Shown here in pieces: positions 59,443 to 62,619 of a DNA stretch of 64,000 bases; position 1 is the first letter of the stretch; each line of letters begins with the position of its first letter. The notes below the pieces were generated by a model. That model was not told where the DNA came from. It worked only from the letters and a program-made list of their open reading frames with translations, and made no database searches. This DNA comes from Chloroflexota bacterium (lineage in GTDB: Bacteria; Chloroflexota; Anaerolineae; Aggregatilineales; Aggregatilineaceae), in NCBI GenBank assembly GCA_012729765.1, contig JAAYCM010000048.1, positions 1-64,000 on the forward strand, in the 5' to 3' direction. The position numbers and the translations under genes were made by a program.

Positions 59443-62400
59443 CTAGACCTGGCGCAGGCCGATGGTCACGGTTTCACCGTCGAACTCGAACTCAGCCTGA
59501 TAGCTGCCGTTCGAGGGGGCGCCCTCGGCCAGCGTCTCGGCCAGCGTCTCGCGCTGCACGTAGTCGGCGTGCGCCAGGATCGCCTCCTGGAGCCGCTCAC
59601 TGGCTTCATACGTCACGGCGATGTGATCGGTGATGTCGTAGTCGGCATCCTTGCGCATCGTCTGGATGCGCCGCACAAACTCGCGCGCCAGCCCTTCCTG
59701 GAGCAAGGCCTCGGTTAGCTCGGTCGAGAGCGCGGCCAGATAGCCGTATTCCTCAGCCACTGCGTAGCCTTCCGCCGCGCCTTGCAGCACCTCGACCTGC
59801 TCCGGCGTCGCCTCAAACGTCTGGCCGTTCACCGTCACCGCGATCGTCTCACCGGCCAGCAGCGCCTTGGCCCAGCGCTCGACATCTTCCGGCGCGCCCT
59901 CGCGCAGCGCCTTCTGCACCTTGGGGAAGTCGCCCTTCAACGCGCGGCCCAACACCTGCGGCAGCGGGTTGAGGCTGTAGCGCACGATGTCGCCCATCGA
60001 GTCGGCCACCTGCACCGCTTTGACGTTCAGCTCGTCAGCGATGGTCGCGGCAAGCTGGCGCACCACGTCCTGCTCAGACTTCGACCGCACCGCGAAGATC
60101 GCCTCGGCCAGCGGCTGGCGCACGCGCAGATTGGCGCTGTTGCGCGCGGCGTGCCCCAGGCTGACCAGCTTTTGCGCCAGGCGCATATCGTCCATCAACT
60201 GCTGATCGATCAGCGCCTCGTCATAGGCCGGCCACAGCGCCAGGTGCACGCTTTCTGGCGCGTCGGGCTGTGCGCCCGCCACCAGGTTCCGGTACAGCGC
60301 TTCCGACAGGAACGGCATCGACGGCGCGAGAAGCTGCGCGACCACCGCCAGACACTCATACAGCGTCTGGTAGGCAGCGGTCTTATCGGCATCGCTCTCA
60401 GTCTTCCAGAAGCGGCGGCGCGAGCGGCGCAGATACCAGTTACTCAGCCGATCTACAAAGCCCTCGATCGGGCGCGTGGCCGCCGGCACATCGTAGTTTT
60501 CATACGCTTCGGTTACGTCGCGCACCAGGCTGTGCAGCTCGCTGATGATCCAGCGGTCGAGCGGGTCGCGCCCGGCAGCCGGCACAGACTCGCGCCCCGG
60601 CTCGAAGCCGTCGATGTTGGCGTAGGTCACGAAGAAGCTGTAGACATTCCACAGCGTCAGGTAGAAGCTGCGCACCACATCGCCCACCAACTCGACCGAG
60701 AACCGGCGCGGCTCGCCGGGCGGGCTGGCGGTGTACATGTACCAGCGGAACGCGTCCGCCCCGTACTTGTCCAGCACGCTCCACGGCTCGACGATGTTGC
60801 CCAGGCTCTTGGACATCTTACGGCCCTGGTCATCCAGGATATGCCCCAGGCTGATCACGTTCTTAAAGCTCACCTGCTCGAACAGCATCGAGCTGATCGC
60901 GTGCAGGCTGAAGAACCAGCCGCGCGTCTGATCGACTGCCTCGCAGATGTAGTCTGCCGGGTACTGATCGCGGAACATATCCTCGTTCTTGAACGGATAG
61001 CCCCACTGCGCGACCGGCATCGAGCCGCTGTCGAACCACACGTCGATCAGTTCCGGCACGCGGTGCATCGTCCCGCCGCATGCCGAACACGCGAACGTGA
61101 CTTCGTCCACATACGGGCGGTGCAGGTCCATTTCCGAGAGATCGCGCCCGGCCAGCTCCGAAAGCTCGGCCACGCTGCCGACGCAGTGCTTATGCTGGCA
61201 GTCGGGATTGTCACACACCCACACCGGCAGCGGCGTCCCCCAGTAGCGCTCGCGCCCCAGTGCCCAGTCGCGCAGGTCTTCGAGCCAGTTGCCGAAGCGG
61301 CCATCTTTGATGTGCGACGGCACCCAGTTGATCGTCTGGTTCAGCTCGATCATCTTCTCGCGGTAGCGCGTCGATGCGATATACCACGTCTCGCGCGCAT
61401 AGTAGAGCAGCGGCGTATGGCAGCGCCAGCAGAACGGGTAGTTATGGACGTACTGCTCGGCCTTGTAGAGCAGCCCGCGCGACTTCAACTCCTGCCTGAT
61501 CAGCGGGTCGGCATCCTTGACCCACACCTCGGCCCATGGCTCGACCTCTTTGATAAACGTGCCATCCGGCGCGACGGTTTGCAGCACCGGCAGGTTATAG
61601 GCCCGGCCCACGTCCATGTCGTCCGCGCCAAAAGCTGGGGCGATATGCACGATGCCGGAGCCGTCCTCCGTGCTCACGAAGTCGCCGTGAACGACATAGG
61701 CGTAGTCCTGCTCGACCGGCAGGAAGCGGTAGAGCGGCTCGTAGTGTATACCGAGCAGTTCTTCGCCCTGCATCTCCTGCACGACGTGATAGTTCTCCGG
61801 GTGCTTGAGCGCCTTGTCGAACAGCGCCTGCGCCAGGATCAGCCGTTCGGTGCCCTGCCCGTCATCGGTCGGGCCTTCGACCAGCACATACGGCACACGG
61901 CGTCCCACCGCCAGCGCGACGTTGCCGGGCAGCGTCCAGGGAGTCGTGGTCCACACCAGGAAATACGTGCCGGGCTGGTCCTTGACCGGGAAGCGCACGA
62001 ACACGCTCGGATCGGCCACTTCCTCATAGCCCTGCGCGACCTCGTGGCTGCTCAGCGGTGTACCGCAGCGCGCGCAGTAGGGCACGACCTTGTAGCCCTG
62101 GTAGAGCAGGTCCTTATCCCAAAACTGGCGCAGAATCCACCACACGCTCTGGATATACTCGTTCTTGAACGTGACATACGCCTCGTCGAGATCGACCCAG
62201 AAGGCGATGCGCTCGGTCAGGCGCTCCCACTCCTCGATGTAGCGGAACACGCTCTCGCGGCATTTCTCGTTATAGCGCGCGATGCCATATTCCTCGATCT
62301 CGTGCTTGTGCGTGAAGCCAAGCTCCTTCTCGACCTCGATCTCGACCGGCAGGCCGTGCGTGTCCCAGCCCCCCTTGCGCAGGACATACTCGCCCTTCAT

Positions 62401-62619
62401 GGTGTGGTAGCGCGGGAACATATCCTTGAACGCGCGCGCCAGCACATGATGGGTGCCGGGACGACCGTTCGCGGTCGGCGGCCCTTCGTAGAACACATAG
62501 CGCCGGCTGCCCTTGCGCTCTTCCATGGTGCGATGAAAGATGTCCTTCTCGCGCCAGAAGTCGAGCTGAGCCTGCTCCAACGCCTGGATATCGACTTTCG
62601 GTGTTACCGGCTTAAACAT
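59443..62619 (-). CDS. ileS: isoleucyl-tRNA synthetase, type 2, with swapped HIGH motif
   Basis: 1058 aa, near the length of type 2 IleRS. GGWDTHGLPVEIEVEKELG, YCARCGTPLSSHEVAQGY and DVWFDSGSMPVAQWGYP are IleRS2-style motifs; KMSKS is intact at about 601-605. The HIGH position reads GTHH (residues 55-58, in NGRPGTHHVLARAFKD), with the first and third residues exchanged relative to HxGH. IleRS2 enzymes are mupirocin-resistant, and the exchanged motif has been linked to still stronger resistance. A structured leader of 157 bp precedes it. No other ileS is in the window. Confidence 0.96.
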   Translation of the reverse strand: MFKPVTPKVDIQALEQAQLDFWREKDIFHRTMEERKGSRRYVFYEGPPTANGRPGTHHVLARAFKDMFPRYHTMKGEYVLRKGGWDTHGLPVEIEVEKELGFTHKHEIEEYGIARYNEKCRESVFRYIEEWERLTERIAFWVDLDEAYVTFKNEYIQSVWWILRQFWDKDLLYQGYKVVPYCARCGTPLSSHEVAQGYEEVADPSVFVRFPVKDQPGTYFLVWTTTPWTLPGNVALAVGRRVPYVLVEGPTDDGQGTERLILAQALFDKALKHPENYHVVQEMQGEELLGIHYEPLYRFLPVEQDYAYVVHGDFVSTEDGSGIVHIAPAFGADDMDVGRAYNLPVLQTVAPDGTFIKEVEPWAEVWVKDADPLIRQELKSRGLLYKAEQYVHNYPFCWRCHTPLLYYARETWYIASTRYREKMIELNQTINWVPSHIKDGRFGNWLEDLRDWALGRERYWGTPLPVWVCDNPDCQHKHCVGSVAELSELAGRDLSEMDLHRPYVDEVTFACSACGGTMHRVPELIDVWFDSGSMPVAQWGYPFKNEDMFRDQYPADYICEAVDQTRGWFFSLHAISSMLFEQVSFKNVISLGHILDDQGRKMSKSLGNIVEPWSVLDKYGADAFRWYMYTASPPGEPRRFSVELVGDVVRSFYLTLWNVYSFFVTYANIDGFEPGRESVPAAGRDPLDRWIISELHSLVRDVTEAYENYDVPAATRPIEGFVDRLSNWYLRRSRRRFWKTESDADKTAAYQTLYECLAVVAQLLAPSMPFLSEALYRNLVAGAQPDAPESVHLALWPAYDEALIDQQLMDDMRLAQKLVSLGHAARNSANLRVRQPLAEAIFAVRSKSEQDVVRQLAATIADELNVKAVQVADSMGDIVRYSLNPLPQVLGRALKGDFPKVQKALREGAPEDVERWAKALLAGETIAVTVNGQTFEATPEQVEVLQGAAEGYAVAEEYGYLAALSTELTEALLQEGLAREFVRRIQTMRKDADYDITDHIAVTYEASERLQEAILAHADYVQRETLAETLAEGAPSNGSYQAEFEFDGETVTIGLRQV

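Follow-up and report, generated by a model that had tools for sequence, protein, structure and literature searches.

The isoleucyl-tRNA synthetase (IleRS) encoded in this window (by which we mean the whole stretch of 64,000 nucleotides analysed) carries the sequence GTHH in place of the class I signature HxGH, with its first and third residues exchanged. We consider it very probable that this is the housekeeping IleRS2 of an Anaerolineae-like member of the Chloroflexota, whose GXHH motif is predicted to leave catalysis normal and to render the enzyme hyper-resistant to mupirocin. The enzyme is an ordinary new example of the G/AXHH class, the motif that Brkic et al. (2023) named and identified as a cause of extreme mupirocin resistance (PMC10485003), and the swap seen here is already explained by that published work.

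The type 2 gene (ileS2) occupies positions 59443..62619 on the minus strand. It is an intact open reading frame of 1058 amino acids beginning with ATG, and is under purifying selection with a dN/dS of about 0.15–0.24. The preliminary description had placed the swap at residues 55–58 and had given KMSKS as intact; both statements hold. GTHH lies at 62446..62457 on the minus strand, where its codons read GGC ACC CAT CAT from 62457 to 62446, and KMSKS is found at residues 601–605, which by calculation from the residue numbers correspond to 60805..60819 on the same strand. A scan of the whole protein finds no other [GA]xHH. The possibility that a canonical HxGH might align elsewhere was also raised at that stage, and none is present in any part of the 1058 residues. 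Rather, GTHH sits without gaps on the HIGH position when aligned with the Thermus IleRS (1ile) and the 8c8u family of Priestia megaterium IleRS2. The window segment ptangrpgthhvlarafkd pairs with ptanglphvghaqarsykd and, in 8c8w, with ptanglpgvhhalgrtikd; the engineered GVHH of 8c8w is identical to the window motif at positions 1, 3 and 4. Because this gap-free alignment to solved IleRS2 structures is a long one, the register of the motif is beyond doubt.

The protein scores 964.8 bits against TIGR00392 (cut-off 621.4), covering 5–859 of the 861 profile positions, while models for valyl-tRNA synthetase (ValRS) fall under their cut-off. Its Pfam domains are tRNA-synt_1, Anticodon_1 and a C-terminal DUF5915 (PF19302); the same domain search gave no match to zf-FPG_IleRS, the zinc finger of IleRS1. 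The closest solved IleRS2 structures, 1ile and 8c8u–w, score 933–987 bits against it, with 986 bits for 1ile and 946 bits for 8c8w, in comparison with 258–367 bits for bacterial IleRS1, of which 1ffy scores 367. On its sequence the protein is a type 2 IleRS, as originally proposed, because DUF5915 is present and IleRS2 structures outscore those of bacterial IleRS1. The T. thermophilus (1ile) and P. megaterium (8c8u–8c9d) enzymes belong to the same family and align over nearly the full length, but the wild types of both carry HVGH; the GVHH of 8c8w is an engineered mutation that reproduces the motif state of the window enzyme. The IleRS2 of Streptomyces griseus and of Deinococcus radiodurans (PMC10485003) have the first and third positions of HxGH exchanged in the same register as here, with KMSKS retained.

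The earlier statement that exchange of these residues confers extreme mupirocin resistance agrees with the published account. Among the IleRS2 set examined there, 86 sequences had G/AXHH and 77 had HXGH, and the swap was absent from IleRS1 (PMC10485003). Mutagenesis in both directions ties the swap to a mupirocin Ki in the mM range. Wild-type DrIleRS2 (ALHH) has a Ki of 6.6 mM, which falls 823-fold to 8.1 µM on conversion to HVGH, while introduction of GVHH into TtIleRS2 and PmIleRS2 raises the Ki by about 200- to 430-fold (PMC10485003). In crystal structures of the PmIleRS2 mutant the histidine at the third position supplies the catalytic nitrogen normally provided by the first, and a clash with mupirocin is seen on modelling (PMC10485003). 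By analogy, His57 in the window enzyme would take over the transition-state contact made by the first histidine of HxGH, with Gly55 occupying the vacated position 1, and the side chain of His57 would sterically exclude mupirocin, so that the Ki is predicted to be high-micromolar to millimolar. We infer both normal catalysis and mupirocin resistance from the published enzymes; for the protein itself, its sequence, the register of the motif, its assignment to IleRS2, the single copy of its gene and its conservation in relatives are established.

The window enzyme has glycine at position 1, histidine at positions 3 and 4, the HIGH register and an intact KMSKS, but it departs from the published wording at position 2. 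There X is described as hydrophobic, and the motifs assayed in Table 1 are ALHH and GVHH, none having threonine (PMC10485003), whereas the residue read from the window sequence is Thr. The wording on X describes a position without a catalytic role, and as it is positions 1 and 3 that define the motif, threonine here is no bar to membership. Thr or Ser occupies position 2 in most of the 13 members of the window's clade, and Thr recurs in one distant family as GTHH and ATHH; in all, four changes between polar and hydrophobic residues at this position can be placed on the tree. It is conceivable, though unlikely, that the polar forms (GTHH or GSHH here, ATHH elsewhere) are a functional sub-variant with kinetic or resistance properties of its own that arose separately in the two lineages.

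How general is the swap in the Chloroflexota? The closest relatives of the window protein are in independent Anaerolineae metagenome-assembled genomes (MAGs), at 78–81% amino acid identity and with G[TI]HH at the motif site, in keeping with the initial suggestion of a probable Chloroflexota. The motif was read in about 105 different IleRS genes of the phylum, a sample picked by similarity and family and so not unbiased. About 102 of them carry G/AxHH; the exceptions are two genes with HIGH (L052 and L053) and one with HPGH. A strict DNA pattern for the swap matches 173 of 400 genomes of the phylum, or at least 172 once a match to the unrelated peptide PPHNGTPAPHH is discounted, and this is a lower bound, as neither the PPTANN/ANA spellings nor any of the PITANNPMGVHH clade is caught by the pattern. 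The swap is nearly universal among the sampled Chloroflexota IleRS and occurs in both deep IleRS2 clades, and in that setting the window gene is not unusual. Descent within the phylum, and not a recent acquisition, is the most likely source of its swapped motif.

Several further variants were met in the sample. Eighteen genes form a deep Chloroflexota IleRS2 clade with the signature DGPITANN.MG[VI]HH, in which the HIGH swap is accompanied by an altered KMSKS (xMHKS or xMHRS), leaving both class I motifs non-canonical. Five swapped enzymes of the major clade also have an altered KMSKS (KASKS or KQSKS). A 1-Mb contig labelled Pleurocapsa minor (JAHHHY010000001.1) encodes an IleRS with GVHH that is 64% identical to the window protein and groups within the Anaerolineae; this nominal cyanobacterium is possibly a mislabelled or mixed MAG.

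A tree of IleRS constructed without the motif columns contains two deep IleRS2 groups with the swap present in both, like the published tree, the legend of which mentions the few Chloroflexi sequences available (PMC10485003). Every member of the window's clade has the swap. L052 (from G088, a genome of the window's class) and L053 (from G081) are nested inside swapped GxHH clades, and L052 lies beside a gene with GIHH (L068) with an SH-aLRT support of 100%. Trees in which all the HxGH sequences were held together, or L052 was held with L053, were rejected by the AU test (p-AU 0.0001 and 0.003, respectively), using quick trees and groups named after the tree had been seen. L052 and L053 are probably independent reversions. 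The pairing of L052 with a swapped gene and the rejection of the joint groupings suggest that HIGH was regained separately at least twice in the Chloroflexota, resembling the reversion reported in Deinococcus-Thermus.

The genome containing the window is a draft assembly of 4.75 Mb in 154 contigs, 93.6% complete. In a profile search of it the window ileS is the only match above the TIGR00392 cut-off, extending to the genome the earlier remark that no second ileS was seen. The other matches are weak and partial, and one on another contig reads PPPNVTG-HNGH, a ValRS-type motif. Downstream of ileS on the same strand are a DksA/TraR-type zinc-finger gene (58864..59409, minus strand, PF01258) and lspA, encoding signal peptidase II (58281..58859, minus strand, PF01252). 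An ileS–lspA neighbourhood is common in bacteria. Upstream, at 62777-63769 on the minus strand, are two adjacent open reading frames of 167 and 161 amino acids; neither matches a Pfam family, and both have a hydrophobic segment close to the N-terminus. Rfam searches place neither a T-box nor any other known leader RNA at ileS; the matches in the window fall elsewhere, a SAM riboswitch at 24536-24652 (minus strand, 86.3 bits) and a ribosomal protein L10 leader at 3982-4145 (minus strand, 58.3 bits).

Could the motif be an artefact, the real enzyme having HxGH? A draft in so many contigs might contain a sequencing or assembly error, or a decaying copy of the gene. Yet an error would need to have altered two codons at once, each by at least two bases, and chance, error and pseudogene formation were rejected given G[TI]HH in the independent relatives, the strong purifying selection and the intact, full-length reading frame; we give this explanation almost no credence. 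Scarcely more probable is a dedicated and recently acquired resistance gene of the MupA kind, standing beside a normal IleRS1. MupA and MupB are mupirocin-tolerant IleRS2-type enzymes, a type shared by the window protein for which tolerance is inferred, and their models do match it at 891 and 861 bits. These scores are less than half of the cut-offs of 1900, however, and the gene is the sole chromosomal ileS, adjoins lspA and has a tree position that agrees with its Anaerolineae relatives.

A different question is why the motif is kept. It might be maintained for reasons other than mupirocin, either as a neutral ancestral state of IleRS2 or as resistance to another adenylate-mimicking inhibitor, with hyper-resistance to mupirocin a by-product. 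The swap is nearly phylum-wide in two deep clades, a distribution that neutral inheritance of the state would explain just as well, and there are the apparent reversions in L052 and L053; moreover wild-type DrIleRS2 suffers no catalytic trade-off (PMC10485003), so drift between motif states is plausible. Against this, selection by natural mupirocin has been argued (PMC10485003). We judge the chance of such maintenance to be a little short of even. It bears on the cause of maintenance alone, leaving the biochemistry of the enzyme aside, and does not conflict with our preferred reading of the window protein as a housekeeping, predicted hyper-resistant IleRS2; resistance need not be the reason that the motif is kept.

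What is added to a published phenomenon is one more well-supported example, in the window gene, and the distribution of the swap at the level of a phylum; the understanding of the motif is unchanged. The new points are modest: a polar position 2 common to the window's lineage and recurrent in one distant family, together with the probable reversions. The sister pairs with GxHH and HIGH could be used as natural pairs to test why the motif flips.
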